From positions 24,557 to 88,556 of the forward strand of contig CAIWCC010000241.1 in assembly GCA_903911085.1 (NCBI GenBank): a stretch of 64,000 bases of DNA, written 5' to 3'. The notes below the pieces were generated by a model, which was given only the letters and a program-made list of their open reading frames with translations, made no database searches and was not told the DNA's origin. This stretch comes from an uncultured Bacteroidales bacterium (lineage in GTDB: Bacteria > Bacteroidota > Bacteroidia > Bacteroidales > Paludibacteraceae). Shown one piece after another: positions 7,453 to 62,152 of this stretch. The position numbers and the translations under genes are program-made. How positions within the stretch are numbered: the stretch's first letter is position 1; each line of letters starts with the position of its first letter.

Positions 7453-7632
7453 TCCGTAGTAATTTAGTATGATGTCATCAACCATATATTAATAAATAAT
7501 ATCTGGCTAATGCCAATTTCGTTTCCATAACATTGAATTGGCTCACGCTTTACTGGATAAAATGAACCCAATTATTGAAGCTTTGTAATTTCAACATATT
7601 TTCAGCCATCAAAAATAGTCTATTCAAACGAC

Positions 7633-7668
7633 AAAAGCAAATTAATGATTTCTCATTAATTTGCTTTT
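7633..7668 (-). terminator. Perfect 16-bp hairpin between the DUF5017-like gene and GH43
   Basis: aaaagcaaattaatga-tttc-tcattaatttgctttt. Confidence 0.65.
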
Positions 7669-7685
7669 GCTAAAACAAAGACTAT

Positions 7686-8873
7686 TTACAAGCTATCGGC
7701 ACTACCTTTTACCAGAATCACAAATTCTCGCACAACCTTCGATGTACCATTTGTGCCCACATTCATTCCTACGATAGAAGCTTTGTACACACCTTTTTCT
7801 TTGTAAATATATTGGTAATACAACATCGAACTTTGATCTACTTTCTTGACTAAGGTAGCTGGATCGGGAGTTACTGCTGCTGGATTTAAACCTCGGCTAA
7901 TAAGCCAAGTTTCGGAAGGTGTAGTTCCAGCCGCTACTTTTTTTGCTACAGCACCGGGAGCTGTAACAATTATTGGATAGCTAGTTGCTAATTTCACACT
8001 ATCGAAGTTCACTGGGATTGCACCATTATTTATTGATGGATTTGCTTGATACCTTGTTTCACCAATTTCACCCATATTCCAATTGTAACCCGAAGCATTA
8101 AGCACTTTTGTTGTTCCACCAGGTGCAATAGTTGAATCGGGTGCATATTTTCCCCATGCTGCCGACGAAAGTGTATTTATTATTATTGGATAGTTGACAG
8201 TTTTCTTATTCACCACTGTTACCCCTTTTTTCACATAACCATAATCGCGCACCTCAGTGTTTGTAACAGTAAATCCAATTGCCGAAATTGATAGCATATT
8301 TTTAATAGCATCAGCACTTTTTGCTGATATTGCAAAATTCAAATCACCAGATTTAAGATTTAATGGAGTAGAAACGTTTGTAAAAGTGTAATTATCAGTT
8401 ACAGAAAGTGAATCAAATGATATAGCACGTAGTTTCATCAACTCAGTTTTTGTGGCAGTATTGAATTCTGTTGACGACGATTTGACTAAACCCGAAACAG
8501 CAACTAATGAATAGTCTTTAGCCAAAAGTTTAACAAAACTTTTTACAGTTGTATTTACACTAACTTTCGATTCAAATACAGTTCCATCATTGGACTGATA
8601 ATTACTACGGTTAGCAAAGCGGTATTCTCCGCCTGTTGGAACTGATTCACCAGAGTAAAATAGAATCTGATCGGGACATCCTGCTGGAAAATTGAATGTT
8701 ATTTTTTCATTCACATTAACTACAAAAGTATCAGATATCATACTCACTTGATCAGTAACATTAACTTCAAAATTATCTGGAGCAATAACCAAAGAACGCT
8801 CATCGGTACAGCTGCTTAATGCAAAACCAATGACTGACAGCATAATAATGCCTTTATTTATATGTTTTTTCAT
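7686..8873 (-). CDS. DUF5017-like surface lipoprotein (glycan-binding, SusE/F position)
   Basis: MKKHINKGIIMLSVIGFALSSCTDE lipobox; ITFNFPAGCPDQILFYSGE resembles the DUF5017 signature; located directly after SusD. Confidence 0.7.
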   Translation of the reverse strand: MKKHINKGIIMLSVIGFALSSCTDERSLVIAPDNFEVNVTDQVSMISDTFVVNVNEKITFNFPAGCPDQILFYSGESVPTGGEYRFANRSNYQSNDGTVFESKVSVNTTVKSFVKLLAKDYSLVAVSGLVKSSSTEFNTATKTELMKLRAISFDSLSVTDNYTFTNVSTPLNLKSGDLNFAISAKSADAIKNMLSISAIGFTVTNTEVRDYGYVKKGVTVVNKKTVNYPIIINTLSSAAWGKYAPDSTIAPGGTTKVLNASGYNWNMGEIGETRYQANPSINNGAIPVNFDSVKLATSYPIIVTAPGAVAKKVAAGTTPSETWLISRGLNPAAVTPDPATLVKKVDQSSMLYYQYIYKEKGVYKASIVGMNVGTNGTSKVVREFVILVKGSADSL

Positions 8874-44678: not shown

Positions 44679-47600
44679 ATGCAAGATCTTATTAAAGAAT
44701 TAGTTGATCAAATTGAGAATATAAACGAAATGAGCGAGTTTATGTCTTATAAAACTGAGCTTATCAAGAAGTTGAATTTTTTGTCAACTAATGATAATTT
44801 GGTTCAAAATAAAAGTATTCCAGCCGATTTTGAAATAATACTTGAACACAACTCTTTTTATAAATCGATATTTTACAATCAAAAAAGTTCACTGTGGTTC
44901 AAAGATACAAATCATAAATTCGTACTTGTAAATAACACTTTTTCAAAGATGTTTGGTATTGAGAATCCTGAATTACTAATTGGAAAGACAGACTTTGATA
45001 TTTGGCCAAAAAAATTGGCAAAAAAGAATAATGCTGAAGAGAATGATATAATACTGTCGGGCAATCCAATAATTACCGAAGAGATAATTTTAATAAATGG
45101 AATAGAAAAGTGGTTCGAGATATATAAGGCACCAGCATATAATGAAAAAGGAGTAATAATTGGCACTATTGGTTATTTAAATGACATTACAGTACGACGA
45201 GAAAAAGAAGAGCATCTTCGCAAATTGTCGAAAGCCATAGATCAAAGTACGGTTAGTATAATGATTACAGATTTGAATGGCAATATTGAATATGTCAATA
45301 ATCAATTTAGTGAGGTAAGTGGTTTCTCGTACGATGAAGTAATTGGTAAAAATCCTAGAATATTGAAATCTGAATCTTTGAGTTCCGATAAGTATAAAGA
45401 ACTATGGAGCACCATTATTTCGGGTGGAGTTTGGAAGGGAGAATTTGAAAACATAAATAAAAATGGTAAATCATTCTGGGAGTATGCATCCATTTCTTCA
45501 ATCAAAAATCACAACGGTGAAATAACTCAATTTCTGGCTGTTAAGGAAGATATTACATCGCGTAAAACTGTTGAAAAAGAGTTGTATCGAATGTCACAAT
45601 TGCAAGATATATTAATAAAAATGGCATCAAAATATATCAATCTTGAATTGTCGGACATTGACCCAAGTATTAACAAATCATTAGGAGAACTAAGCGATTT
45701 CTTTGAAGCAGATAGAGCTATAATATTTGATTACGATTGGGAAAATGAAGTTTGTAATAACACTTACGAATGGTGTGGGGCAGGAATAAAATCATATATC
45801 AAAGATTTACAAAACATACCATTATCTCAAATGAATGAATGGGTTGTTGTGCATTCAAAAGGCAAAACGCTCGATATTCCAGATATCAAATCGTTTAATG
45901 GCTTAACGAGAGACATTCTGGAAAAAAAAGGAGTAAAAAGTTTAATTTCAGTTCCAATAATGAACAATGAGAAATGTATCGGATTTATAGGATTCGATTC
46001 AATTCGTAAACGTCATCGTTATTCAGAAAATGAAAAATCGCTTCTTTTTGTTTTTGGACAAATGATAGTCAACCTTTTACAACATTCAAACTTAGAGAAT
46101 ATATTGATTCAAGAAAAAGAAAATGCACAAAAAGCAACTAAAGCAAAATCGGAATTTGTTGCCAATATGAGTCACGAATTGCGAACTCCATTGAATGGTG
46201 TAATAGGATTTTCGGAATTATTGATTCAAACAAATTTATCAGAAGTTCAAAATCAATATGCTAGCGCGATTAATATAAGTGCCAATTCACTTTTAGGAGT
46301 AATTAATGACATTCTTGATTTCTCAAAAATTGAAGCAAATCGATTAGAATTAGAGATAACAAAGACAGATATTGTAAAATTAATTGAACATAGTTTAGAT
46401 ATTGTAAAGTTTCCTGCAGAGAAAAAGAAGCTGGAATTATTATTGGATATACCTCAAAATTTACCAAAATATGCTTTTGTAGACTCCATACGATTAACAC
46501 AAATTTTATCTAATTTAATTAGCAATGCGGTAAAATTCACATCGGTTGGTGAAATTGAGTTGAAAGTTACATATAAAAAAATATCCGATCACTTAGGAGA
46601 ATTTGTTTTTTACGTTCGTGATACAGGAATCGGAATTTCTGAAGAACAAAAATCTAAACTTTTTAAAGCTTTCAGTCAAGCCGACAGCTCTACTACTCGA
46701 AAATTTGGCGGCACAGGATTAGGATTAATCATATCCGAAATGATAGCAAAAAAAATGGGAAGTAAAATTTTATTCGATAGTAAAAAAGGTTTAGGCACAA
46801 CTTTTTATTTTAGTTCTCAACTTAAGGTAGAATACGATAATACAATAAATATCAAACCACTAACTAATATTAGTAGAGTTTTAGTAATTGATGATAATCA
46901 AAATAGTAGAAACAATTTAGAAAAACTTATAACAGGCTGGGGCATAAATTGTGAAACTTGCGAAAGTCCATTTAATGCAATTATGATTTTACAATTATCC
47001 GAACCATTTGATGCAATAATTGTAGATAATAGAATGAATAATATTGATGGAATGGGATCAATAAAAATGATTTGTGATAAATTAAATATTTCAACAACAA
47101 ATCAAACCTTTATTTTACTACATTCAATATCAGAAGATTATCTTTTTTATGAAGAATGTAACGAAATGGGTATAAATATATTTTTCACTAAACCCATAAA
47201 AGCAAAAGAGTTATATACATGCTTAAGTGGATTAAACATCAACAAAGATCCAGAAAAAAATATTATCGAAGATACGAATACTCATAAATCGGAAACATAT
47301 AAAATATTAATTGCAGATGACGATTTATTTAACATGTATTTGGCAAAAGCGATGATAGGTACAATAATACCAAATGTAATAATTCATGAAGCAAATAATG
47401 GTAAGGAGGCTTTGGAGTTAGCTATGACTTCAAAATTTGATATGATTTTTATGGATGTGCAGATGCCTGAAATGGATGGCAATGAAGCAACAATTGCAAT
47501 TAGAGAATTTGAAAAACCACTAAATATTTATACGCCAATAATTGGGCTTACAGCTGGGGCGCTTAAAGAAGAAAGAGATAAATGCCTAGATTCTGGCATG

Positions 47601-47693
47601 GATGAATTTCTAACTAAACCTATAGACACTAACAAGTTAAAAGAAACTATTCATAACTATATATTTGAAAAAAGATCTGTAAATTTTACTTAA
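44679..47693 (+). CDS. Hybrid sensor histidine kinase (PAS-PAS-GAF-HisKA-HATPase-REC-REC)
   Basis: KSEFVANMSHELRTPLNGVIGFSELL, DTGIGISEEQKSKLFKAFSQADSSTTRKFGGTGLGL, ILIADDDLFNMYLAKAM...DMIFMDVQMPEMDGNEAT. Confidence 0.95.
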   Translation: MQDLIKELVDQIENINEMSEFMSYKTELIKKLNFLSTNDNLVQNKSIPADFEIILEHNSFYKSIFYNQKSSLWFKDTNHKFVLVNNTFSKMFGIENPELLIGKTDFDIWPKKLAKKNNAEENDIILSGNPIITEEIILINGIEKWFEIYKAPAYNEKGVIIGTIGYLNDITVRREKEEHLRKLSKAIDQSTVSIMITDLNGNIEYVNNQFSEVSGFSYDEVIGKNPRILKSESLSSDKYKELWSTIISGGVWKGEFENINKNGKSFWEYASISSIKNHNGEITQFLAVKEDITSRKTVEKELYRMSQLQDILIKMASKYINLELSDIDPSINKSLGELSDFFEADRAIIFDYDWENEVCNNTYEWCGAGIKSYIKDLQNIPLSQMNEWVVVHSKGKTLDIPDIKSFNGLTRDILEKKGVKSLISVPIMNNEKCIGFIGFDSIRKRHRYSENEKSLLFVFGQMIVNLLQHSNLENILIQEKENAQKATKAKSEFVANMSHELRTPLNGVIGFSELLIQTNLSEVQNQYASAINISANSLLGVINDILDFSKIEANRLELEITKTDIVKLIEHSLDIVKFPAEKKKLELLLDIPQNLPKYAFVDSIRLTQILSNLISNAVKFTSVGEIELKVTYKKISDHLGEFVFYVRDTGIGISEEQKSKLFKAFSQADSSTTRKFGGTGLGLIISEMIAKKMGSKILFDSKKGLGTTFYFSSQLKVEYDNTINIKPLTNISRVLVIDDNQNSRNNLEKLITGWGINCETCESPFNAIMILQLSEPFDAIIVDNRMNNIDGMGSIKMICDKLNISTTNQTFILLHSISEDYLFYEECNEMGINIFFTKPIKAKELYTCLSGLNINKDPEKNIIEDTNTHKSETYKILIADDDLFNMYLAKAMIGTIIPNVIIHEANNGKEALELAMTSKFDMIFMDVQMPEMDGNEATIAIREFEKPLNIYTPIIGLTAGALKEERDKCLDSGMDEFLTKPIDTNKLKETIHNYIFEKRSVNFT

Positions 47694-47898: not shown

Positions 47899-48993
47899 AT
47901 GGATAACTTTAAGAATAAGCACATATTGATTATTGATGACAATCCTATGAATCTGCTACTGACATCAAAACTACTCGAAAATCATGGTTTTAAAGCGAGT
48001 ACAGCAGAAAGCGGCGCATTAGGTATTGAATTTTTAAAAAATATATCACCTTCATTAATCCTATTGGATGTAATGATGCCTGATGTTGATGGCTATGAAG
48101 TGTGTAGGGAAATAAAAAAAGTTGAAAAATGGAAAGATATACCCGTTATATTTTTAACTGCAAATGATCAAACCGAGAATGTAGTTGAAGGATTTGATGC
48201 TGGTGGTGTGGATTACATTACAAAACCATTTAAAAGTGAGGAATTGTTAGTACGCATTAAAAATCATATTGAACTTGCCGTCTCTCGCAAAACAATATTG
48301 GAAATGAATCACTCAAGAGATAAGCTTTATTCAATTATTGCACACGATATTCGATCTCCACTTTCAGGTATTTTGCAAACTGTCGATGCAATTGATCAAG
48401 GATTTTTTGATCCAAGTAGCGAAGATTTTATGGATATAATACATCATCTTAGAATAAGAACTAAAGACACTAGTACCCTATTAAACAGCCTTTTACAATG
48501 GACTAGAGCACAAGATGACAACATTCAACTTGAACCACAAAATACAAATATTTTCTCAATTATTAGTAGTTGTCAAACATTACTGGAGGCAGTAGCTCAA
48601 AATAAGAATATCGAAATACTGCTTGATGTTCCACAGGATATAGAAGCTTGGTGCGATGAAGTTTCTATTAATACTGTAATACGAAATATTATTTCTAACT
48701 CTATTAAATTTACTCCAAGTAATGGAAAAATAACCGTTACAGCAAAACAACAAGTTGATACAGTTGATATATGTATAAGTGATACTGGTGTTGGAATGTC
48801 TGACGATGCAATGAAAAAGATTTTTGAAGAAAACCAGCATTTTACAAGTTCTGGTACTGATAATGAATCGGGTACAGGTTTGGGATTAATGTTAGTCAAA
48901 GATTTCATAAAAAAGAACAATGGTAGTTTAAGAGTTGAAAGCAAATTAAATATTGGTACTAGTTTAACAATATCATTACCTAAGTTTCACTAA
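47899..48993 (+). CDS. Response regulator-histidine kinase (REC-HisKA-HATPase)
   Basis: IIDDNPMNLLLTSKLL...LILLDVMMPDVDGYEVCR; KLYSIIAHDIRSPLSGILQ; DTGVGMSDDAMKKIFEE...GTGLGLMLVKDFIKKNNG. Confidence 0.94.
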   Translation: MDNFKNKHILIIDDNPMNLLLTSKLLENHGFKASTAESGALGIEFLKNISPSLILLDVMMPDVDGYEVCREIKKVEKWKDIPVIFLTANDQTENVVEGFDAGGVDYITKPFKSEELLVRIKNHIELAVSRKTILEMNHSRDKLYSIIAHDIRSPLSGILQTVDAIDQGFFDPSSEDFMDIIHHLRIRTKDTSTLLNSLLQWTRAQDDNIQLEPQNTNIFSIISSCQTLLEAVAQNKNIEILLDVPQDIEAWCDEVSINTVIRNIISNSIKFTPSNGKITVTAKQQVDTVDICISDTGVGMSDDAMKKIFEENQHFTSSGTDNESGTGLGLMLVKDFIKKNNGSLRVESKLNIGTSLTISLPKFH

Positions 48994-49003
48994 ATAAAAT
49001 ATT

Positions 49004-50377
49004 ATGGATAATAAACTGTTAAGTATTTTAATAATCGATGATGACATCGTATATCGAAAATTATCTAGTTCTATTTTAAAAGAACGATTTAACGTTTATG
49101 CTGCCGAAGCACCATCAATAGCATTCAAAATTTTGAAAGCAGAAAGTATTGATTACGTTATTTGCGATTATCGACTTCCAGAAATGAATGGTTTGGAAGT
49201 ATTAGAGCGAATAAAGATGGATTATCCACATATTGAGCTAATTATGATTAGCGATTCTGGCGATATGGACACAGTAATTCAAGCATTAAGACGCGGTGCT
49301 GTTGATTATTTTAAAAAACCATTTACACCAGCTGACATTTGGATGTCAATTGAAAAAACACAAAAGTTTGCAGAACTAAATAATAATTACAAAGCCGAAA
49401 AAAATAAAAATTCACATCTAAAAGAAATTGTAGACCGCGAATTTGGAGTTGAAATTATTGGGAATTCTAAAGCTATTAAAGAACTAAAATTACAAATGCG
49501 TTTGGTAGCTCAAACTCCTGATACTTCAGTACTTATTTTAGGAGAAAGCGGTACTGGCAAGGAGCTTGTAGCCAAAGGAATTCACAATTTAAGTAATAGA
49601 AAAGATGAGTTTTTTGGTGCAGTAAATATGTCAGCTATACCAGAAAGTTTATTTGAAAGTGAATTTTTTGGTCATAAAAAAGGTAGCTTTACAGGAGCAA
49701 TTTCTGATAAAGCAGGTTGGTTCGAAACCACAAATAAAGGAACCTTATTTCTCGACGAGATTGGTGAAATGACGCATAACTTACAAGTAAAACTTCTGCG
49801 AGTACTCGAAGATAGAACTTACATAAAAGTTGGTACTCAAACCGCGAATAAATATGATATCCGGATTGTAGCAGCAACAAATAAACCAATTGAAGAGATT
49901 TCGGATGGAAAAAACTTTAGAGTCGATTTATTTCATCGAGTTGGAACTTTTATTATTCACTTACCACCATTACGCGAGCGCAAAGAAGACATTCCCGATT
50001 TAGTAAAGCATTTTGTTACTTTTTTTTCGGCTAAAATGGCCAAAAATATTATTGAAGTTCAACCAGCTGTATTCGATATGTTTAACAAATACAGCTTTCC
50101 CGGCAATATTCGTGAACTAAGAAATATTATGGAAAGAGCTATTATACTTTGTACAGATAATGTGCTGAAACCTGAAAACTTTAGTATTATAAACAGTTTT
50201 AGCAAACAAAAAAACACTAATACTATTGAAAGCTACGACTTGGAAGTAATTGAAAAACAAACCATACTAAATGCATTACAAAAAGCAAATAACAATAAAG
50301 CAGAAGCTGCACGATTGTTGAATATTGAATGGAATGCTTTATATCGAAGACTTCAAAAATTTAATATCGAAATTTAA
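49004..50377 (+). CDS. Sigma-54-dependent response regulator (NtrC family: REC-AAA+-Fis HTH)
   Basis: ILIIDDDIVYRKLSS...DYVICDYRLPEMNG; ILGESGTGKELVAKGIHNLS; GHKKGSFTGAISDKAGWFE (GSFTGA variant of the sigma-54-contacting GAFTGA loop); C-terminal NKAEAARLLNIEWNALYRRLQKFNI. Confidence 0.96.
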   Translation: MDNKLLSILIIDDDIVYRKLSSSILKERFNVYAAEAPSIAFKILKAESIDYVICDYRLPEMNGLEVLERIKMDYPHIELIMISDSGDMDTVIQALRRGAVDYFKKPFTPADIWMSIEKTQKFAELNNNYKAEKNKNSHLKEIVDREFGVEIIGNSKAIKELKLQMRLVAQTPDTSVLILGESGTGKELVAKGIHNLSNRKDEFFGAVNMSAIPESLFESEFFGHKKGSFTGAISDKAGWFETTNKGTLFLDEIGEMTHNLQVKLLRVLEDRTYIKVGTQTANKYDIRIVAATNKPIEEISDGKNFRVDLFHRVGTFIIHLPPLRERKEDIPDLVKHFVTFFSAKMAKNIIEVQPAVFDMFNKYSFPGNIRELRNIMERAIILCTDNVLKPENFSIINSFSKQKNTNTIESYDLEVIEKQTILNALQKANNNKAEAARLLNIEWNALYRRLQKFNIEI

Positions 50378-50391
50378 ATTCTTTCAAAAAA

Positions 50392-50407
50392 TCTTCGTTT
50401 TCGAGCA
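50392..50407 (+). promoter_or_regulatory. Candidate activator (UAS) site upstream of LruC gene 1
   Basis: tcttcgttttcgagca, 91 bp upstream of the -24 box; shared with sites at 52671 and 55269. Confidence 0.6.
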
Positions 50408-50482
50408 TTATTGCTTATAATTGGAGATTACAACCTTAATGCATATCTGTTTATACTGCTCATATTCAAAGAGATATTTTTT

Positions 50483-50498
50483 TGGCATATATATTGAC
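50483..50498 (+). promoter_or_regulatory. Sigma-54 -24/-12 promoter, LruC gene 1
   Basis: TGGCATATATATTGAC; GG (50484-50485) and TTG (50494-50496) at consensus spacing (TGGCACG-N4-TTGC). Confidence 0.7.
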
Positions 50499-50548
50499 TA
50501 TAGTTTTAAAATTATAATATGATTAATGTCTATTTAATAAATTAAAAT

Positions 50549-52612
50549 ATGAAAACTTATAAATTCAACTTAGCTCTTGCTGTAGTTACTTCATTTTTTC
50601 TTACATCTTGTTTAGATGAAAAAAATAATGATATTAACAATACAAGCAATTTTTCGTCATTTGATTTCAAGACAACGAAAGAGTACAATGTGTCGGTCAC
50701 TACGTTGAATAATGAAAACCAACCCTTCAATAAAGTTTTGGTGAAATTATTTACTCGGAATCCTTTGGATTCAGTAGGTAATTTAAAGGCGGATTATATG
50801 GATTACCTTATTTTTAAAGGAAATACCAATGAAAATGGAGAACTAAATTGTAGAATTTCACCCGCTACAACAGTTGATAGTTTAAGCGTTTTAGTAGAAC
50901 ATATAGGATTGCCTACTTTGCAAACAGTTAAACTTGTTGGAACAAATGTTAATATTCGAATTGGTGGACAAACTCAAGCTGTAAAACAAGCATCTAAAAT
51001 TGGACTTTATAAAGTTGTGACACCGCAAACACCAAATGCAAGTGGTTTCTACGTTTTAGGAGATTGGAACTCATTGGGTGTGCCAAATTATCTTTCTGCA
51101 AATGACGTAATCTCTAATTCACTGCTAGCAGATATTAATGCTTCATTACCTGAATACAAACCATTGACAACTACTCATCCACAATATCTGGAAGATACAA
51201 ACGATGGAAGTGTTAAGCTTTATGAGGACGCTGAAGTATGGGTTACTTTTGTTCATGAAGGTGCAGGTTGGTCAAATGCATTAGCATACTATACTTATCC
51301 AAATGGAAATCCCCCAGCAACCGCTGATGCAATAACCGACAAAACAATAATTTTTCCAAACTTTTCATTTGTAAATTTGGGTGGTGGTTTAGTTTCTGGA
51401 AACAAAGTACAATTACAGTATTTAGACCCAGTAACAAAACAATATACAACTAGATTTCCTAAAGGAACTACAGTAGCTTGGATACTTAGAGCACAAGGAT
51501 GGAGTAGTTCTTCACATCAAGTTGTAGCTGGTTTATGTACTCATTATTCTGATTCTCGTTTTAACAGTGAAAGTGATTCAAAATTAAAAAAACACAATGT
51601 TGTGTTAAACGATGCAGCAAGAAAGTTATTATTGATTGGTTTTGAAGATATGCGCCGCGACAATGGAGCTGACAATGATTTTAACGATGCTGTTTATTAT
51701 GCAAGTGTGAATCCTTACACAGCAATAGATGAAAAACAATACAAAGTTATTGATAAACCTGTTGATACAGATGGAGATGGTGTTACAGATGTAAATGATG
51801 AATATCCAAACGATCCAACAAGAGCATACAATAATTATTATCCAGCTAAAGGTCAAACAGGAACATTAGCTTTCGAAGATTTATGGCCATCTAAGGGCGA
51901 TTATGATTTTAATGATATGATAGTAGATTATAATTATAATCAAATAACAAATGGTGCTAATCAAGTAGTTGCTTTTAATGCCGAACTATCCCTAAGAGCC
52001 AAAGGCGCTCATTATACAAATGCTTTCGGAATACAATTTAACACAAATCCCGAAAATGTAAAATCAATTACTGGACAGCATATTACTAATGGATATCTAA
52101 ATATTGGATCAAACGGCACCGAAAATAACCAAAGCAAGGCAGTAGTTATTGTTTACGATAATGCTTATGATTTATTGAAAACTTATAATACTATTATTGG
52201 TCAAACATATTATACTCCAAAAACAATAAAATTAAATATTGAATTTTCATCACCTATAGATCCAATTGTTTTTGGTACTGCACCATACAATCCATTCATT
52301 ATTATTGACAAAAACAGAGGCAAGGAAGTTCATTTACCAACCTTACCACCAACTGATTTAGCCGATAAAAACTTGTTAGGAACAAAAGATGATAATTCAA
52401 ATATTGCTCTTGGAAAATATTATATGTCTGACAAATACTTGCCATGGGCAATTAACATACCTATCACCTTTGACTACCCTGCCGAGAATGAAGATATAAC
52501 CAAAGCATTCCTCAACTTTAACAAATGGGCTGAAAGTAATGGAGCTACCAATACCGATTGGTATGTAAATAAAGCTGGCTATAGAGATAACAGCAAGATA
52601 TTTATAAAATAA
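50549..52612 (+). CDS. LruC domain (DUF4842) + DUF4114-like lipoprotein, paralog 1
   Basis: Lipobox FFLTSC; DTDGDGVTDVNDEYPNDPTRAYNNYYPA calcium-type motif; LAFEDLWPSKGDYDFNDMIVDYNYNQITNGAN. Confidence 0.9.
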   Translation: MKTYKFNLALAVVTSFFLTSCLDEKNNDINNTSNFSSFDFKTTKEYNVSVTTLNNENQPFNKVLVKLFTRNPLDSVGNLKADYMDYLIFKGNTNENGELNCRISPATTVDSLSVLVEHIGLPTLQTVKLVGTNVNIRIGGQTQAVKQASKIGLYKVVTPQTPNASGFYVLGDWNSLGVPNYLSANDVISNSLLADINASLPEYKPLTTTHPQYLEDTNDGSVKLYEDAEVWVTFVHEGAGWSNALAYYTYPNGNPPATADAITDKTIIFPNFSFVNLGGGLVSGNKVQLQYLDPVTKQYTTRFPKGTTVAWILRAQGWSSSSHQVVAGLCTHYSDSRFNSESDSKLKKHNVVLNDAARKLLLIGFEDMRRDNGADNDFNDAVYYASVNPYTAIDEKQYKVIDKPVDTDGDGVTDVNDEYPNDPTRAYNNYYPAKGQTGTLAFEDLWPSKGDYDFNDMIVDYNYNQITNGANQVVAFNAELSLRAKGAHYTNAFGIQFNTNPENVKSITGQHITNGYLNIGSNGTENNQSKAVVIVYDNAYDLLKTYNTIIGQTYYTPKTIKLNIEFSSPIDPIVFGTAPYNPFIIIDKNRGKEVHLPTLPPTDLADKNLLGTKDDNSNIALGKYYMSDKYLPWAINIPITFDYPAENEDITKAFLNFNKWAESNGATNTDWYVNKAGYRDNSKIFIK

Positions 52613-52616
52613 TTCA

Positions 52617-52664
52617 ATTTTGAATAATTGCTTGTAATACAAATTTCAAGCAATTATTCAAAAT
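52617..52664 (+). terminator. 18-bp perfect hairpin after LruC gene 1
   Basis: attttgaataattgcttg (52617-52634)/caagcaattattcaaaat (52647-52664). Confidence 0.7.
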
Positions 52665-52670
52665 AAAGAA

Positions 52671-52705
52671 ACTTCATTTTCGAACATCAATCTTCATTTT
52701 CGAAG
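52671..52705 (+). promoter_or_regulatory. Two tandem candidate UAS sites upstream of LruC gene 2
   Basis: acttcattttcgaaca (52671-52686) and tcttcattttcgaag (52691-52705), 20 bp apart; the distal site is 91 bp upstream of the -24 box. Confidence 0.65.
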
Positions 52706-52761
52706 TAAATACAAAACACTCAATACACGCTATATTAATGATATATATACACTTACAAAAG

Positions 52762-52777
52762 CGGCACGATAATTGTT
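52762..52777 (+). promoter_or_regulatory. Sigma-54 -24/-12 promoter, LruC gene 2
   Basis: CGGCACGATAATTGTT; GGCACG-N4-TTG, near-consensus. Confidence 0.8.
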
Positions 52778-52813
52778 TATATTTTATACTAAATAAATAC
52801 ATAATATATAAAA

Positions 52814-54883
52814 ATGAAACAAATTAAAATTCGTCTACTGATTGCACTTGCTTTAACCCTAACACTTTCATTTTCATCATGTAATGATAAAATTACTGAT
52901 TTCTCACCTAATGACAGTTCATTGAATTTTGATTTCAAAACAATCAAAGAAGTTAATGTTTCGATTTCAACATTGAACAACAACAATGAACCATTGCCTG
53001 GAGTATATGTTGAAATTTACTCACAAAACCCACTAGATGAAAATGGTGGTCTTATAGCTAACAGAACAGATTTTCTTTTACAAAAAGGTTTAACTGATGC
53101 TACGGGTCTACTATCCAGCACAATTGCTCCTGCAACTACAGTTGATAGTTTAGTTGTTCTTGTTAACCAAATAGGTTTACAAAGTTATCATTCTGTAAAA
53201 TTAACTTCAAATAATATTAAACTGACAATAGGAGGCAATAATGCCCAAAGCAAAGTAAAATATAAAGCAGTGGCTTCAACTTCTGCTATTATACCACCAG
53301 TATCGAATGTTGATGATTTTTTTGTACTTGGAGGATGGAATAAATCAGGCGTTCCAAATTACCTACTTGCTGATGATTTGATTAGCAATGACTTTTTAGT
53401 TGATGTAAATGCCTCGTTACCTGAACGAGTTGAATTATCAACTTCACATCCAGAATACTTAAACAGTTCTGATAATGGTAACTTAGTGCTTGACAAAGAT
53501 GCAGAAGTTTGGGTAACATTTGTACACGAAGGTGCTGGTTATTTGAATACATTGGCATACTACACATATCCTAACGGAAACGCCCCTAAAAAAAGTAAAG
53601 ATATTACCGACAAAACTATCATTTTTCCTAATGCATCTTTTTCTGGTTCAGGCGGTGGAATGAATTCAGGGAATAAAGTTCAATTATTTTACTACAATCC
53701 AACTAAAAAGTCTTATACAAATATCTTTCCAGCTGGTACTACAGTTAGCTGGATAATAAGATCAAATGGTTGGACAGGTTCTGCAGTAGGAACTGGATAT
53801 AACAATTTTTATTCTGACAAAAATTTAAATCCCGAAAAAAATACTGAAAACCAAAAGCACAATGTTGTTCTTAAGGATTTGAGTCGTCAAATCTACCTTG
53901 TAGGATTTGAAGATTTGAATCGTGAAACTGGTAATTCAGACAACGATTTCAATGATGTGGTAATTTATGCAACAGTAACTCCATTCGACGCTGTTAATGA
54001 ATCATTATATAAAGCTGTTGATTCAAAAATTAAAGACAAAGATAATGATGGTGTTCCAGATGATAAAGATGAATATCCGGAAGACAAATCAAGAGCTTTT
54101 AACAATTATTATCCTGCTAAAAGTCAAACAGGAACATTAGCATTCGAAGATTTATGGCCATCTAAAGGTGATTATGATTTCAATGATATGATAGTAGATT
54201 ATAATTATAATCAAATAACAAATGGTGCTAATAAAGTAGTAGCTGTATATGCTGAACTAACTCCACGAGCTAAAGGTGCTCATTATTCCAATGCATTCGG
54301 GATAGAATTTAACACCACTCCAGAGAATGTAAAATCGGTTACTGGTCAGTCTATTACAAACGGATACCTTAATATTGGATCTAACGGAACCGAAAACAAC
54401 CAAAGCAAAGCTGTAGTTATTGCTTTCGATAATGCATATGATTTCTTGAAAACTTATAATACAATAATTGGACAAACATATTATACTCCAAAAACATTAA
54501 AAATCAATATTGAATTTGTAACACCAATAGATCCAATTGCATTTGGATCAGCACCTTACAATCCATTTATAATTATAAATAAAACAAGAGGAAAAGAAGT
54601 GCATTTACCAACATTAGCTCCTACAAGTTTAGCTGATTTAAGTTTACTTGGCACTGTAGATGACAATTCAAATATTGCTCTAGGAAAGTATTATACATCA
54701 GACAAATATCTGCCTTGGGCAATAAATATACCAGTGACTTTTGATTATCCAGCTGAAAAAGAAGATATTAGAAAAGCATTTTTATTCTTCAACAAATGGT
54801 CAGAAAGCAAAGGTCTTACTAACAAAGATTGGTATGTAAACAAAGATGGTTTTAGAGACCTTACAAAAATTTACCACAAATAA
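52814..54883 (+). CDS. LruC domain (DUF4842) + DUF4114-like lipoprotein, paralog 2
   Basis: Lipobox LSFSSC; LAFEDLWPSKGDYDFNDMIVDYNYNQITNGAN; KDNDGVPDDKDEYPEDKSRAFNNYYPA. Confidence 0.9.
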   Translation: MKQIKIRLLIALALTLTLSFSSCNDKITDFSPNDSSLNFDFKTIKEVNVSISTLNNNNEPLPGVYVEIYSQNPLDENGGLIANRTDFLLQKGLTDATGLLSSTIAPATTVDSLVVLVNQIGLQSYHSVKLTSNNIKLTIGGNNAQSKVKYKAVASTSAIIPPVSNVDDFFVLGGWNKSGVPNYLLADDLISNDFLVDVNASLPERVELSTSHPEYLNSSDNGNLVLDKDAEVWVTFVHEGAGYLNTLAYYTYPNGNAPKKSKDITDKTIIFPNASFSGSGGGMNSGNKVQLFYYNPTKKSYTNIFPAGTTVSWIIRSNGWTGSAVGTGYNNFYSDKNLNPEKNTENQKHNVVLKDLSRQIYLVGFEDLNRETGNSDNDFNDVVIYATVTPFDAVNESLYKAVDSKIKDKDNDGVPDDKDEYPEDKSRAFNNYYPAKSQTGTLAFEDLWPSKGDYDFNDMIVDYNYNQITNGANKVVAVYAELTPRAKGAHYSNAFGIEFNTTPENVKSVTGQSITNGYLNIGSNGTENNQSKAVVIAFDNAYDFLKTYNTIIGQTYYTPKTLKINIEFVTPIDPIAFGSAPYNPFIIINKTRGKEVHLPTLAPTSLADLSLLGTVDDNSNIALGKYYTSDKYLPWAINIPVTFDYPAEKEDIRKAFLFFNKWSESKGLTNKDWYVNKDGFRDLTKIYHK

Positions 54884-54934
54884 TAATATTAGCATTTCAT
54901 ACTAAACATTTTTATTTGTTTTGGGTTTAATAAG

Positions 54935-54968
54935 AATCAGGTGTATATTTCAAAATATACACCTGATT
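54935..54968 (+). terminator. 16-bp hairpin with T-rich tail after LruC gene 2
   Basis: aatcaggtgtatattt-ca-aaatatacacctgatt followed by ttatttttagc. Confidence 0.8.
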
Positions 54969-55268
54969 TTATTTTTAGCTAATATTTTGTAGTTTCGAAA
55001 CTCACGAAAAGGTTGAAATAAATATTATGATACCAATAATGAAAGTTTAGAATCTCAAGATATATCAGGGAAACAAAAAGTTTATGTACTGTTTTCTAAT
55101 TTCTTTCCACAAAGTGAAATTTTAAATTGACTTAATATCAAAGTTGACTTTTGGCTAAAATGCTCATGTGTTTTAAAAATTAAATAAGCATATTTACCAA
55201 ATTAACATTAAAATCAAAAAAATATTATTACAAAACACACAATTGAATTAAGCTTAATTAAACTACTA

Positions 55269-55284
55269 TCTTCGTTTTCGAACA
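55269..55284 (+). promoter_or_regulatory. Candidate UAS site upstream of LruC gene 3
   Basis: tcttcgttttcgaaca, 92 bp upstream of the -24 box. Confidence 0.6.
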
Positions 55285-55360
55285 AACCTCTTTATTTATA
55301 AATAATAATCAACCGACTCAAAATAAGGTACACACTTAATTATCTTACACTTACAACTTA

Positions 55361-55376
55361 TGGCATATAAATTGTT
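55361..55376 (+). promoter_or_regulatory. Sigma-54 -24/-12 promoter, LruC gene 3
   Basis: TGGCATATAAATTGTT; GG and TTG at consensus spacing. Confidence 0.75.
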
Positions 55377-55414: not shown

Positions 55415-57496
55415 ATGAAAAAATTAAATCTCAAATTATTTTTTGTTGTTTTTACTATCTTATCGTTTTCATCATGCTTAGATGAAAAAATTAGCGATCT
55501 CAACAATGCTAGCACTACCTTGGGTTTTGATTTCAAAACCACTAAAGAATTCAATGTATCATTAACTACCCAGAACAATGAAAATCAAACCATTGGTGGT
55601 GTTTATGTAAAACTTTACTCACAAAACCCTCTTACAGAGAGTGGACTACTAAAAGACGACAGTGAAAACTTCCTTGTTTTCAAAGGCTTAACTGACTCAA
55701 ATGGAAATATTGCAACTAAAATTGCTTTACCAACTTTTGTAGATAGTTTAAGTGTGCTAATAAACCACATAGGACTACCTAATTATCAAATTGTAAAACT
55801 AAATGGTGGTAATATTAATGTGATAGTTGGTGGATCGTCTGTACAAAAAACTAAAACCAATGTTAGTCGATCTAAAGCACCAAATTCTGGCATGTGGTGG
55901 ATTAGTGATTTTTGGAAAGTAAATGATTTCTATGCCTTTTCAAATTGGAATAGCTTAGGAGTACCTAACAATTTAGAAGCAACAAATGATGTTATATCAA
56001 ACCAATTGTTGGCCGACGTAAATGCTACATTACCTGAGCGAATTAAATTAACGGTTTCACATCCCGAATATTTAACAAGCCAAGATGATGGAAGTATTGT
56101 ACTTATAGAAGATGCTGAAGTTTGGGTTACTTTTGTACATGAAGGAGCTGGATTTTCTAACACATTAGCATATTACACACATACCAATGACATGCCACCA
56201 GCTACAAAAGCTGATATTAAATACTCTACTATATCATTCCCAAATGTTTCATTTTTAAATTCAGGTGGCGGTTTGAAATCCGGAAATAAAGTACAATTGC
56301 TCTACTACGATCAAGCTAAGGCTCAATATACAAATGTATTTCCTGCTGGAACTACAGTGGCATGGATGTTTAGAGCTAATGGTTGGGACAGTGGTTCGGC
56401 AACTGTAAAAAATGGTTTATATAATTTTTATTCTGATAAACGTTTTAATCCAGAAGCCGATTTAACTTTAAAGAAACACAGCGTAATTCTAAAAGATGAT
56501 GATCGTAAATTACTTTTAATTGGATTCGAAGATTTGCGCAGAGACCAAAGTTCAGATGAAGACTTTAATGATGGTGTTTTTTATGCTACAGTAACTCCAT
56601 ACACTGCAGTAAAAAATGGAATTTACAAGAAAATTGATACACCAAATGATACCGATAAAGATGGCGTAAGTGATGTTATTGATGAGTATCCTACCGATCC
56701 AACTAGAGCATATAATAATTACTATCCTGCAAAAGGTCTTACAGGTACGTTGGCATTCGAAGATTTATGGCCATCAAAAGGAGATTATGATTTCAATGAT
56801 ATGATTGTTGATTATAATTTTAATCAAATAACAAATGGTGCAAATAAAATTGTAGCCATAAATTCAGAACTAACTCTTAGAGCCAAAGGAGCTCATTACT
56901 CAAATGGATTCGGTATAGAGTTTAACACTACACCTGAAAATGTAAAATCAATTACAGGTCAAAAAATTACAAATGGGTATCTAAGTGTTAATTCAAATGG
57001 AACTGAAAAAAATCAAAGTAAAGCAGTAGTTATTGCATTTGATAACGCTTATGATTTGCTACCTTCATTCAACACAATTAACGGTCAATCATATTCTACT
57101 CCAAAAACAATAAAAATAAATATTGAATTTACAACACCAATAGATCCTGTTGCATTAGGAACTGCACCTTATAATCCATTTATTATTATTGACAAAACCA
57201 GAGGCAAAGAAGTTCATTTACCTACTTTAGCACCTACAAGTTTAGCGAATTTGAACTTATTTGGAACAAGTGATGACAATTCAAATATTGCTTTAGGAAA
57301 GTACTATATGTCAGATAAATACTTACCTTGGGCTATCAATATACCTGTTACTTTTGATTATCCTGCCGAGAAAGAAGATATTACAAAAGCATTTCTAAAT
57401 TTTAACAAATGGGTTGAAACTAAAGGTATCTCAAACACCGATTGGTACATAAATAAAGCAGGATATAGAGACAATTCAAAAATATTTAGTAAATAA
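55415..57496 (+). CDS. LruC domain (DUF4842) + DUF4114-like lipoprotein, paralog 3
   Basis: Lipobox LSFSSC; DTDKDGVSDVIDEYPTDPTRAYNNYYPA; LAFEDLWPSKGDYDFNDMIVDYNFNQITNGAN. Confidence 0.9.
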   Translation: MKKLNLKLFFVVFTILSFSSCLDEKISDLNNASTTLGFDFKTTKEFNVSLTTQNNENQTIGGVYVKLYSQNPLTESGLLKDDSENFLVFKGLTDSNGNIATKIALPTFVDSLSVLINHIGLPNYQIVKLNGGNINVIVGGSSVQKTKTNVSRSKAPNSGMWWISDFWKVNDFYAFSNWNSLGVPNNLEATNDVISNQLLADVNATLPERIKLTVSHPEYLTSQDDGSIVLIEDAEVWVTFVHEGAGFSNTLAYYTHTNDMPPATKADIKYSTISFPNVSFLNSGGGLKSGNKVQLLYYDQAKAQYTNVFPAGTTVAWMFRANGWDSGSATVKNGLYNFYSDKRFNPEADLTLKKHSVILKDDDRKLLLIGFEDLRRDQSSDEDFNDGVFYATVTPYTAVKNGIYKKIDTPNDTDKDGVSDVIDEYPTDPTRAYNNYYPAKGLTGTLAFEDLWPSKGDYDFNDMIVDYNFNQITNGANKIVAINSELTLRAKGAHYSNGFGIEFNTTPENVKSITGQKITNGYLSVNSNGTEKNQSKAVVIAFDNAYDLLPSFNTINGQSYSTPKTIKINIEFTTPIDPVALGTAPYNPFIIIDKTRGKEVHLPTLAPTSLANLNLFGTSDDNSNIALGKYYMSDKYLPWAINIPVTFDYPAEKEDITKAFLNFNKWVETKGISNTDWYINKAGYRDNSKIFSK

Positions 57497-57557
57497 AATA
57501 CACAAATAGTATAAACTTCAAAATAAATTATTATTTTTGAGCGTTTATTTCAAAAAC

Positions 57558-57593
57558 ATGTCAGATGTACAAGTCAAAATGTACATCTGACAT
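57558..57593 (+). terminator. 14-bp perfect hairpin after LruC gene 3
   Basis: atgtcagatgtaca-agtcaaaa-tgtacatctgacat; no clear T tract follows, so an operator is possible. Confidence 0.55.
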
Positions 57594-57637
57594 TAACTGT
57601 ATAAATTAAAGTACTAACTAGTTAAAAAATGACACAA

Positions 57638-58009
57638 ATGAAAAAGAAAATTTTAATCGTCGATGACAAATCTGAATTTCGCAGATTAACAAAAGCAATT
57701 TTAATAAATAAATATGATGTCGAAAGCGCCGAGAATGGCGTTGATGCCTTATCATTACTTCAAAATGGATATATTCCTGATTTAATAGTTAGTGATTTGA
57801 TGATGCCCGAACTAGGTGGTAAAGGTCTGGTGGAACAACTTAAAACTAGTGGAGCTTTTAAAAACATACCAGTAATAATACTTTCAAGTATCGATAAAAG
57901 TTCGGAAAAAATTCAACTAATAAATTTAGGTGCTAGCGACTATCTCGAAAAACCATACAACCCCTCTGAATTACTTGCGCGCATCGAAAACCTACTCAAA
58001 AACAGATAA
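57638..58009 (+). CDS. Single-domain response regulator (REC)
   Basis: KKKILIVDDKSEFRRLTKAIL...PDLIVSDLMMPELGGKGLV...VIILSSIDKSS...LEKPYNPSELLARI. Confidence 0.92.
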   Translation: MKKKILIVDDKSEFRRLTKAILINKYDVESAENGVDALSLLQNGYIPDLIVSDLMMPELGGKGLVEQLKTSGAFKNIPVIILSSIDKSSEKIQLINLGASDYLEKPYNPSELLARIENLLKNR

Positions 58010-58096: not shown

Positions 58097-59212
58097 ATGG
58101 AATATAAAGGAATTTACATTGGAAGTAACATCGATTTGTTCAACAAACTAACAAAAGAGAATAATCTAATCAGTTTTATTTTGACCAGTCAAACAATGGA
58201 TGTTGTAGAAAAAGCGGATGAAATTGATCTTGTAATTTATGAAGAGTCAGATAAGATTAATGATTTATTAATCATTCAAAACCTTAAAGAAAGTCTTACA
58301 AAAAATAAAGTTGTGATTTTCGTTATTAGCAATTCAGCCAATGTTATAGATTATATTAATTCTGGGGTTCATGACGTTTTTGATATTAATGTCAATTCGC
58401 AAAATATCACTACTCGCTTTGAATTTGTAAAGAACCATATTGATACACTTGAAGGCAAAAAAACAGATATTCTACACACGTTCAAACTTCCAATTTGGAA
58501 AAGAACATTTGATATATTATTCTCTGGTACTGTACTATTGGTTTTATTACCATTTTTTATAATTATTGCAATCCTAATTCGTTTAGAATCAAAAGGTAAA
58601 GTTTATTATGCTTCCCCAAGAGTTGGAACAGGTTATCAAATATTTGGATTTTTAAAATTCAGAAGTATGTACACTGATTCTGACAAAAAAGTAGACAGTA
58701 TGATGAAAAATAATCAGTATACTAATACGGCAACTGATAGTAGAGAATTTGATGATTTACATGATAGTGGACCTGTGTTAATTGATGATGATGGATTTGT
58801 GCGTGAAGGTAAAATTAAGCACCAAAAAGCGTTGAAACGCGAAAATGCTTTTTTTAAAGTAGCTAATGATCCAAGAATAACCAAAGTTGGCAGATTATTG
58901 CGCAATACAAGCATTGACGAATTACCTCAATTTATAAATGTATTGAAGGGCGATATGTCAATTGTTGGAAATAGACCATTACCATTATACGAAGCCGAAT
59001 TAATTACAACTGACCAATGGGCAAAACGCTTTTTGGCACCTTCTGGAATTACTGGACTTTGGCAAGTTACCAAGCGAGGTGGAGCAAACGTAATGTCGGC
59101 TGATGAACGGAAGCAGCTTGATATAGAATATGCTGAAAATTTTTCATTTTGGTATGATATAAAAATACTACTCAAAACCATTCCTGCCATGCTTCAACAT
59201 GAAAATGTTTAA
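58097..59212 (+). CDS. Initiating sugar transferase (bacterial sugar transferase/PGT family) with N-terminal receiver-like domain
   Basis: KRTFDILFSGTVLLVLLPFFIIIAILIRLESKGKVYYASPRVGTGYQIFGFLKFRSMY ... RITKVGRLLRNTSIDELPQFINVLKGDMSIVGNRPLPLYEAE...APSGITGLWQV; about 115 aa N-terminal domain with receiver-like beta/alpha pattern. Confidence 0.93.
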   Translation: MEYKGIYIGSNIDLFNKLTKENNLISFILTSQTMDVVEKADEIDLVIYEESDKINDLLIIQNLKESLTKNKVVIFVISNSANVIDYINSGVHDVFDINVNSQNITTRFEFVKNHIDTLEGKKTDILHTFKLPIWKRTFDILFSGTVLLVLLPFFIIIAILIRLESKGKVYYASPRVGTGYQIFGFLKFRSMYTDSDKKVDSMMKNNQYTNTATDSREFDDLHDSGPVLIDDDGFVREGKIKHQKALKRENAFFKVANDPRITKVGRLLRNTSIDELPQFINVLKGDMSIVGNRPLPLYEAELITTDQWAKRFLAPSGITGLWQVTKRGGANVMSADERKQLDIEYAENFSFWYDIKILLKTIPAMLQHENV

Positions 59213-59987
59213 TCAAAATTACAATATGTATAGATTAATAATTGCTTTTTTTTTACTTGTAGCAATTACATTCTCGGTTAAAAGCCAAGAAAAGAAAATT
59301 ACTACACAAAAAACCGATTCGGCAGAACTCAAATCAATTAAGTACGAATTACCAGATTTAAATGTATTCATAGAATCTGCTTTAAAAAATTCCCCGTTAC
59401 TTAAAATAAATGAAAAAGAATTAGGAAAAATACTCGAAGAAATTAAAATGCAAAAAAAATCTTGGATGGATCTTATCCAAATAGATGCAAATACGAAATA
59501 TGGATTATATAACCAATTAGCAATCAATGATCCTGTTTCTTCCGATGCTTCAGAGGTTGCTGTTCAATCAAATAAAACACAGTTAAATTATTTTGCAGGT
59601 ATTACAATAAAAATACCTTTGTCAAACTTTACAAATCAAAAAAATAAGCTTAAAGTTTTAAATTATAGCGTTCAAGAGTCTGAAATAAAAAAAGATCAAA
59701 TAAAAAATGACTTAACTCTTATTGTTATAGACGAATATTTTAAATTTAAAAACTTTAGCGAAGTGTTAGATTTGGTTCAAAATGATTTGCAAACGATGAA
59801 AATCAAGTATTTAAAAAGTGTTAAAGAAGTTGAAAATGGAGTTCTAAACTTTTCAGACTTTGCAATTATATCTGCTTCATATTCTAAAGCTCAAGAAAGT
59901 TTTTCGAAATCTAAAAATGAGTATTATGCTCAATTTTATAAACTTCAAATCCTTACAGGGATTAACATACAACAATCTACTAAATGA
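59199..59987 (+). CDS. Short TolC-family-like outer membrane protein
   Basis: Signal peptide YRLIIAFFLLVAITFSVKSQ; LNVFIESALKNSPLLKINEKELGKILEEIKMQKKSWMDLIQIDANTKYG typical of TolC; only about half normal length. Confidence 0.7.
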   Translation: MKMFNQNYNMYRLIIAFFLLVAITFSVKSQEKKITTQKTDSAELKSIKYELPDLNVFIESALKNSPLLKINEKELGKILEEIKMQKKSWMDLIQIDANTKYGLYNQLAINDPVSSDASEVAVQSNKTQLNYFAGITIKIPLSNFTNQKNKLKVLNYSVQESEIKKDQIKNDLTLIVIDEYFKFKNFSEVLDLVQNDLQTMKIKYLKSVKEVENGVLNFSDFAIISASYSKAQESFSKSKNEYYAQFYKLQILTGINIQQSTK

Positions 59988-62152
59988 ATTTAATTAAGTT
60001 TATTAAAGTACTAGTAAAAAAGTTTCAATACATTATTATTCTACCAATTATTACTGGCGGAATTGTATTTTATCTTACTAAGGATTTACCAGCAAGCTAT
60101 CAGTCGGAAGGAACAATTTTCACTGGAATTACTTCAAATACAGGACTTGTTGTAACAGAAACGCGTGTAGATAAAATTGCTGCACAAAATGAATATGACA
60201 ATGTATTAGCAATTTTTAAATCAGAAACCTTTTTTGAAGAAATTTCTTTACGTCTATTGTGTCAACATCTTATACTTCAGAAAGCAAAAAAAGAAATTAT
60301 TTCAGAAGGAGCGTTCAAACAATTAATGAAAAACACACCTGACAAAGTAAAAAAACTTGTTGTAAAAGGTAATTTTGAAAAAACATATTCCAACTTAGTA
60401 TCATTTATAAAACAAGACGAAAAAAATTATATTTACCATTTATTGAATTATGGAAATCCTTATTATGGAACAAGTTCAATATCAAGACTAAAAGTTGAAC
60501 GACTGAATAATAGCGATTTAATAAAAATAACTTATGAATCGAATGATGCTGCAATAGCTTATAATACTATTAAGTTTGCATCAGAAATTTTTATAAAAAA
60601 GTATTCTAGTCTCAAGGACAATCAATCGAGTTCTGCTGTTGCATATTTCGAACAAAAACTAAAGGAGGTACAGACAAAATTAGATGAAGCTGAAGCTCAA
60701 CTATTAGCATTCAATGTAGATAATGTTGTAATTAATTATTACGAACAAACCAAACAAATTACCACACAACAAGAGAAAATTGAAATTCGTCTACAAGAGG
60801 TCAAAATGGAATATGAAGCTGCAAATGCTGTGCTTGCCAAATTAGAAAAAGAAGTTGAAATAAGGTTTAGAATTAATTTAAAAAACAAGGAGATACTTGC
60901 ATTAAGAGAAAAATTGGTAGACTTTAATCTTCAAATTACAAGATCCGAAGTAGATGACAAAATTGACAAATCTAAAATTAGTGCCTTAAAATTACAGAAG
61001 TTTTCGATTGAAAAAAAACTTGATAATAAAATTGATTCAATAAACCAATATGAAAATAATAGTGAAGGTATTGAATCACAAAGAATATTAGGCGAATGGT
61101 TGGATGCGGTAAAAAATGTTGAAAACAATTCTGCATTATTAAAATCTATGCAAGAACGGCTTGTTGTGTTTATGAAAGATTTTAAAAAATATGCACCACT
61201 TGGTGCAACTATCAAACGCATTGAACGTGAAATAGATGTAGATGAAAGACAATACCTGAATATACTTAATCTTCTAGGATTGGCTAAACAAAAACAACAG
61301 AATGTGGATATGGTTTCGAACATGAAAATAATGGACGAACCAAAATTACCTATCAATGCAATTCCATCAAAGATGAAAATATATGTAATAGCCGCAGCAT
61401 TATTTTCAGTAATACTATTTATTTTAGGGCTCTTTATTATTGAGTTAATGGATTCTCGTATAAAAACACCATCGTTATTGAAAAAACTTTCGGGATTAGA
61501 TGTAATTGGTGCTTTCTGTACTTATGATAATAAGAAATTCATAAACACTGAGAAAATCACTGACAAAGCTGCTACATTTATTTTTGAAAAAATTAAACTT
61601 TTAACGACAAAAAAAAACAAACCTTTTGTTATTCAAGTTCTTAGTAACTGGGATGGTGCAGGAAAATCATTTGTATCCGATATATTAAATAAAGAAATAC
61701 AAAAACAAGGATTAACTTCTCAGGTAATAAATTTTGCAGAACCGCAATCGAAAAATGAAACTGAGAATAAGCTAGATAGCGAAACTGAAACAAATGAGTC
61801 AAATATAAACATTTCTAATTCATCGTTCAACAGTTATTCGGAATTAGTTTTATCTGAAAAAATTCAATCCGATTTTATTATTAGCATAATTCCTTCAATT
61901 AGTAATGGAATTGAAAATTCATTATTTATAAAATCTGCTGATATTAATTTGGTGATTTTTGATGCAAATACCACATGGGTTGAAGCTGACAATTACAATT
62001 TGGATAAATTGAAACAACTTATTCAAGAAAACCTATATGCGATACTAACTAAATCATTTCCTGATAATTTAGAAGAAATGTATGGTGAAATACCAAAGAA
62101 GCGTTCAGCTATTAGAGTGTTAGTTAAAAAGCTCCTGAAACGATTCGTATAA
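59984..62152 (+). CDS. Wzz/GumC-like polysaccharide chain-length/export protein with divergent C-terminal BY-kinase-like domain
   Basis: N-terminal TM (YIIILPIITGGIVFYLTKDLPASYQSEGTIFTG), long coiled coil, second TM (MKIYVIAAALFSVILFILGLFIIELMDSRIKTPSLLKKLSGLDVIGAF), Walker-A-like SNWDGAGKSF. Confidence 0.85.
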   Translation: MNLIKFIKVLVKKFQYIIILPIITGGIVFYLTKDLPASYQSEGTIFTGITSNTGLVVTETRVDKIAAQNEYDNVLAIFKSETFFEEISLRLLCQHLILQKAKKEIISEGAFKQLMKNTPDKVKKLVVKGNFEKTYSNLVSFIKQDEKNYIYHLLNYGNPYYGTSSISRLKVERLNNSDLIKITYESNDAAIAYNTIKFASEIFIKKYSSLKDNQSSSAVAYFEQKLKEVQTKLDEAEAQLLAFNVDNVVINYYEQTKQITTQQEKIEIRLQEVKMEYEAANAVLAKLEKEVEIRFRINLKNKEILALREKLVDFNLQITRSEVDDKIDKSKISALKLQKFSIEKKLDNKIDSINQYENNSEGIESQRILGEWLDAVKNVENNSALLKSMQERLVVFMKDFKKYAPLGATIKRIEREIDVDERQYLNILNLLGLAKQKQQNVDMVSNMKIMDEPKLPINAIPSKMKIYVIAAALFSVILFILGLFIIELMDSRIKTPSLLKKLSGLDVIGAFCTYDNKKFINTEKITDKAATFIFEKIKLLTTKKNKPFVIQVLSNWDGAGKSFVSDILNKEIQKQGLTSQVINFAEPQSKNETENKLDSETETNESNINISNSSFNSYSELVLSEKIQSDFIISIIPSISNGIENSLFIKSADINLVIFDANTTWVEADNYNLDKLKQLIQENLYAILTKSFPDNLEEMYGEIPKKRSAIRVLVKKLLKRFV

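Follow-up and report, generated by a model that had tools for sequence, protein, structure and literature searches.

A conserved inverted repeat upstream of sigma-54-type promoters of LruC lipoprotein genes in Bacteroidales, a predicted enhancer site of the neighbouring NtrC-type activator

Sigma-54 has been described as a controller of the cell exterior, from which control of lipoproteins and exopolysaccharide has been inferred (Francke et al., 2011, PMC3162934; 2025 regulon survey, PMC12316311). In Proteobacteria, the PrsK/PrsR pair places PEP-CTERM genes under sigma-54 control (Haft et al., 2006, PMC1569441), and the RpoN dependence of PEP-CTERM genes has been shown in Aquincola (PMC9850573). 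Activation by sigma-54 involves DNA loops, for which helical phasing has been described in general (review PMC7408454). No passage on Bacteroidota was found in the text of Francke et al. (2011), and the available part of the 2025 survey does not describe an activator site such as the one presented here. The literature searched held neither a sigma-54 activator site of this kind for Bacteroidota nor a paper treating LruC together with sigma-54. The system discussed below is probably of the sigma-54 enhancer type, and its site is undescribed in that literature.

The window, a stretch of 64,000 nucleotides, lies within contig C241 of a 6.25 Mb Bacteroidales genome that has a single RpoN gene. All genes in the neighbourhood of interest are on the + strand. 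A hybrid PAS/GAF histidine kinase (44679..47693) and a receiver-histidine kinase (47899..48993) precede an NtrC-type activator (49004..50377), which contains a receiver, a sigma-54 AAA+ domain with a GSFTGA loop, and a Fis-type HTH with the helix LLNIEWNALYRR. The receiver-histidine kinase is the conserved neighbour of the activator and its probable phosphodonor. Three LruC-domain lipoprotein genes follow, each with DUF4114 and DUF4842, a lipoprotein-like N-terminus in the product, and a proposed role as target: LruC1 (50549..52612), LruC2 (52814..54883) and LruC3 (55415..57496). Terminator-like hairpins are found 3' of LruC1 (52617..52664, +) and 3' of LruC2 (54935..54968, +). Farther on are a single-domain response regulator (57629..58009), a conserved member of the cluster, and the start of the exopolysaccharide genes (58097..62152), encoding a sugar transferase, an OEP protein and a Wzc-like protein. 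A strong inverted repeat past LruC3, at 57555-57595 (TGTCAGATGTACA ... TGTACATCTGACA), is terminator-like. Another promoter is therefore likely for the response regulator and the exopolysaccharide genes; the composite model defined below gave no match for them in the window.

The element of interest is an inverted repeat of 12-16 bp, TMTTCR-TTTT-CGAAKA, located before each of the three LruC (DUF4842) genes. Its 12-bp core is TTCR-TTTT-CGAA, and the extended consensus across the family is TMTTCRTTTTCGAAKA. Distances run from the leading T of TTC to the base (T or C) that precedes the -24 GG. Putative activator site 1 (50394..50405, +; TTCGTTTTCGAG) has one mismatch in the inverted repeat and lies 89 bp before the -24 box of promoter 1 (50483..50498, +; TGGCATATATATTGAC). 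Before promoter 2 (52762..52777, +; CGGCACGATAATTGTT) there are two putative sites of the same sequence, TTCATTTTCGAA: site 2a (52673..52684, +) at 89 bp and site 2b (52693..52704, +) at 69 bp. Putative site 3 (55271..55282, +; TTCGTTTTCGAA) is a perfect repeat, TTCG-TTTT-CGAA, 90 bp before promoter 3 (55361..55376, +; TGGCATATAAATTGTT). The four copies are all found where an earlier note on this DNA had placed them; its spacings of 91, 91, 71 and 92 bp are the 89, 89, 69 and 90 bp given here, counted from two bases earlier, and its tandem copies before LruC2 are exactly 20 bp apart. The note had also called three sigma-54 promoters. All three have the GG-N10-G pattern and can be called sigma-54-type, but they are not textbook examples: where TTGC would be expected at -12 they have TTGAC, TTGTT and TTGTT, and in promoter 2 CGG replaces TGG. 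Among 24 related sites the GG, the TTG and the -12 G are invariant (24/24), but the next position is seldom C and more often A or T.

By itself, the motif word carries little meaning. TTCRTTTTCGA occurs 37 times on both strands of the 6.25 Mb genome (about 3e-6 per strand position), as frequently as a control with the pattern reversed (43 copies). At this density about 0.001 copies would be expected in three 120-bp upstream stretches, where four are observed. The bare motif was consequently dropped as a genome-wide marker on these counts, as was the TTCGNNNNCGAA repeat, which is not enriched (90 against 119 in the control). The composite, defined as the motif plus a GG-N10-G promoter at fixed spacing, behaves differently: the control composite has no match in the host genome and just two across 48 genomes of the genus. 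Only the composite is diagnostic, and the bare word is not. The concern that the motif might be equally frequent at random positions thus holds for the word and not for the composite. Composites spanning 91, 95, 96 and 107 bp, and one at L155, fall within coding sequence and were set aside as chance matches, as was a single composite at L283.

Conservation at orthologous loci, which the earlier note had named as one test of its proposal, is extensive. About 15 distinct genomes from several families retain the gene order kinase, activator, LruC, response regulator, sugar transferase, OEP, Wzc, and with it the site before LruC. In syntenic kinase-activator-LruC-exopolysaccharide clusters the composite lies upstream of 21 of 22 LruC genes, against 1 of 70 LruC genes elsewhere (Fisher p ~2e-18, from counts that are not independent because close relatives and duplicate records are among the loci). 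The sole exception among the 22 is the first LruC gene of L066, which starts 18 bp past the activator stop codon; the second LruC gene of that locus has the composite. The one positive outside the clusters, L137, is an LruC gene adjoining an activator that is transcribed divergently, has 48% identity and carries the same type of recognition helix. At L051 (G105) no more than a weak site is present, TTCACAAATGAA. Some LruC paralogues look decayed (the LruC gene of L074/L046 and the first LruC gene of L082/L050), with an N-terminal frame interruption in one genome and a 143-residue remnant in another; both retain composites.

The composite also follows the recognition helix of the activator. Every full-length activator orthologue examined has the GSFTGA loop. 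Site-linked activators share the helix LLN[IL]xWN[AS]L (L137 reads MLN), and activators of 45-48% identity lacking the site have LLGISRDALIRK or a similar helix. In an out-of-sample test, activators were taken from 393 genomes of the order and 40 neighbourhoods were fetched, with the composite pattern allowing a free spacer of 60-112 bp. The composite was present in 6 of 7 new loci of the WNAL type and in 1 of 30 loci with other helices (Fisher p = 2e-5), this last one sitting inside coding sequence. Judged post hoc, the seventh WNAL locus (L276) has a site with one mismatch, 79 bp before its promoter, ahead of a DUF4402-like gene. The pairing of the site with the protein encoded at 49004-50377, suggested by the earlier note, is thus supported, since the composite occurs together with the activator gene and with a particular recognition-helix sequence in its product. 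In G320 (L274, G320:C17:52000-70000), which has an activator of 67-69% identity (7291-8640) and a receiver-kinase of 60%, the DNA-binding helix is degenerate (LNIDSKTLSKK). A search of this locus found no composite, and reader and site have apparently been lost jointly.

A sequence profile of the composite, searched over the 48 genomes of the genus, separates hits of at least 33 bits from those of at most 27 bits. Composites of the upper class occur in 12 genomes, 10 of which encode the activator. In G209, with a strong composite, the receiver-kinase has 65% identity and the match to the activator breaks off after its first 84 residues. In G172 (97% complete), neither an activator nor a receiver-kinase orthologue was detected, which is an exception to the pairing of activator and composite; this genome has a tandem composite (L212, G172:C381:15000-24000, 3133-3247; 87 and 67 bp) before a gene for a 135-residue lipoprotein resembling the first gene of the host C127 operon. 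That operon, a lipoprotein gene followed by a fourth LruC gene with sites at 88 and 69 bp, is one of two additional targets predicted in the host; the other encodes a 272-residue lipoprotein (C208, sites 88 and 68 bp upstream). Predicted targets in other genomes encode lipoproteins of small and medium size, secreted proteins of very large size (L215, L216), DUF4402 proteins and single-domain response regulators. In Salinivirgaceae (L081, 11222-11330), a 77-bp composite precedes a UDP-glucose/GDP-mannose dehydrogenase gene in an exopolysaccharide region, suggesting that this enzyme, which makes an exopolysaccharide precursor, is controlled directly.

The distances between site and promoter form a ladder. 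Over all loci they are 88-90, 77-80, 69-70 and 99 bp, or steps of about 69, 79, 89 and 99. The genus uses 88-90 bp; Salinivirgaceae, Carboxylicivirga, Marinilabiliaceae, Plebeiobacterium and G105 use 77-79 bp, L137 uses 70 bp, and the out-of-sample loci have 78, 78, 78, 80, 90 and 99 bp. The best period of the spacings outside the genus is 10.0-10.6 bp (p ~1e-5 for the collapsed set, a statistic that overstates independence because many spacings are common by descent). This period is the helical repeat of DNA, indicating a face-of-helix rule.

A scan of the motif profile over all offsets past the first site gives one peak, exactly at +20 bp (z = 7.0, reached by 0 of 5000 shuffles). When obvious doubles are removed the peak persists (z = 6.4). 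A strong upstream site with a weak downstream partner two turns away is thus typical of the genus. In the window, a degraded second copy lies 20 bp past the start of site 3 (55291..55302, +; TTTATTTATAAA), and a possible one at the same offset from site 1 (50414..50425, +; CTTATAATTGGA), which is weak alone although the offset is significant over the set. Doubling is therefore not special to LruC2, as had been supposed; the +20 copy, usually degraded, is general in the genus, and the near-perfect LruC2 pair is its extreme case. The second copy was not seen at +20 in the families with 77-79 bp spacing.

From the regularities found by computation, namely the sites, their fixed spacing, the helical-turn steps, the conservation and the association with the activator gene and helix, we infer a mechanism in which phosphorylation, binding and looping are the predicted steps. 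Once phosphorylated by the adjacent kinases, the activator would dock as a dimer on TTCR-N4-YGAA, the inverted repeat some 110 bp before the transcription start, in many cases joined by a second, more weakly bound dimer 20 bp, or two helical turns, closer to the promoter. Oligomers on one face of the helix would then loop to the RNA polymerase-sigma-54 complex and open each LruC lipoprotein promoter, switching on genes for exported proteins that accompany exopolysaccharide production. The products of the target genes may serve the exopolysaccharide matrix. Judged from sequence comparison, it is very probable that the NtrC-type activator 49004-50377 uses the element as its upstream activating (enhancer) site. 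The enhancer role proposed by the earlier note is supported by conservation among orthologues and by covariation with the activator gene and its helix. With moderate confidence we extend this reading to a hitherto undescribed, order-wide Bacteroidales sigma-54 regulon, in which one activator lineage would serve scattered exported-protein genes and an exopolysaccharide locus from an enhancer that could not move freely but would keep to helical-turn positions, arranged in one genus as a strong-weak pair 20 bp apart.

Other explanations of the repeat have been considered. A different regulator, either another NtrC-type activator or a repressor, might bind it at the same promoters: the host genome has 79 first-look candidates for other proteins of the activator type, and G172 carries the composite with no detected orthologue of the activator. 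The composite nevertheless tracks the activator gene and its helix type through rearranged loci and across families, and it is missing from G320, whose closely related activator has the degenerate helix; these observations make a different regulator improbable. Duplicated upstream regions, in which chance and common ancestry would account for the likeness, come to mind because LruC1, LruC2 and LruC3 are paralogous and the genome has no more copies of the bare word than of its control. However, the intervening spacers are dissimilar while motif, promoter and distance are alike, and the same composite is found at unrelated genes (short lipoproteins, DUF4402 proteins, the UDP-sugar dehydrogenase, response regulators). 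In the 48-genome profile search it was not equally common in genomes lacking the activator. We regard this explanation as very improbable.

The repeat could also act in RNA, as a hairpin or terminator of the preceding gene, since CTTCG-TTTT-CGAAG is able to form a 5-bp stem and site 1 sits 16 bp past the activator stop codon. Sites 2 and 3, however, lie downstream of separate and stronger terminator-like hairpins: the one after LruC1 is upstream of site 2a and distinct from it, and some 300 bp separate the one after LruC2 from site 3. The window copies have no T-run on their 3' side, the position of the motif is tied to the promoter and not to the preceding gene, and the motif also precedes genes that run divergently to the activator gene (L137; L279). 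An RNA role is accordingly just as improbable as shared duplication. Taken as an enhancer, the element comes with a probable reader, a set of predicted target genes and a rule for spacing, each of which can be tested directly. On this reading LruC proteins are linked to exopolysaccharide production, and the natural series of 69, 79, 89 and 99 bp, together with the loss of helix and site in G320, offers ready tests of how strict the phasing of sigma-54 enhancers is.

In its general design the activator resembles NtrC, ZraR and AtoC, which share its receiver, its AAA+ domain with the GSFTGA loop, its Fis-type HTH and its predicted use of inverted-repeat sites upstream of sigma-54 promoters. Its nearest solved structures are of the NtrC family (4l4u, 1ny5). 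It differs from these proteins in having its own recognition helix and site, and among its best 25 matches to named NCBIfam equivalogs none is above the cut-off. The likeness to PrsK/PrsR is in the arrangement. In both systems a kinase and an NtrC-type regulator are encoded close to exopolysaccharide genes, an activator motif (17 bp for PrsR, putative here), sometimes repeated, lies upstream of a -24/-12-type promoter, and the targets, predicted ones in the present case, are dispersed individual genes encoding exported proteins. The two part in detail. The window activator scores 315.9 bits against TIGR02915 (PrsR), below the cut-off of 502.6. PrsR motif 1 ends in TTTACA, unlike the consensus and core found here, and the PrsR spacer is 62.8 bp (SD 10.6), whereas the spacing here moves in helical-turn steps with about 1 bp of scatter. 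Instead of PEP-CTERM proteins, the predicted targets here include LruC proteins and further lipoproteins; the LruC proteins of the window match only DUF4114, DUF4842 and LruC_dom, with no PEP-CTERM domain detected. The sequences are thus best read not as a member of the PrsR system but as a probable Bacteroidales counterpart of PrsR/PEP-CTERM control that uses a different site.
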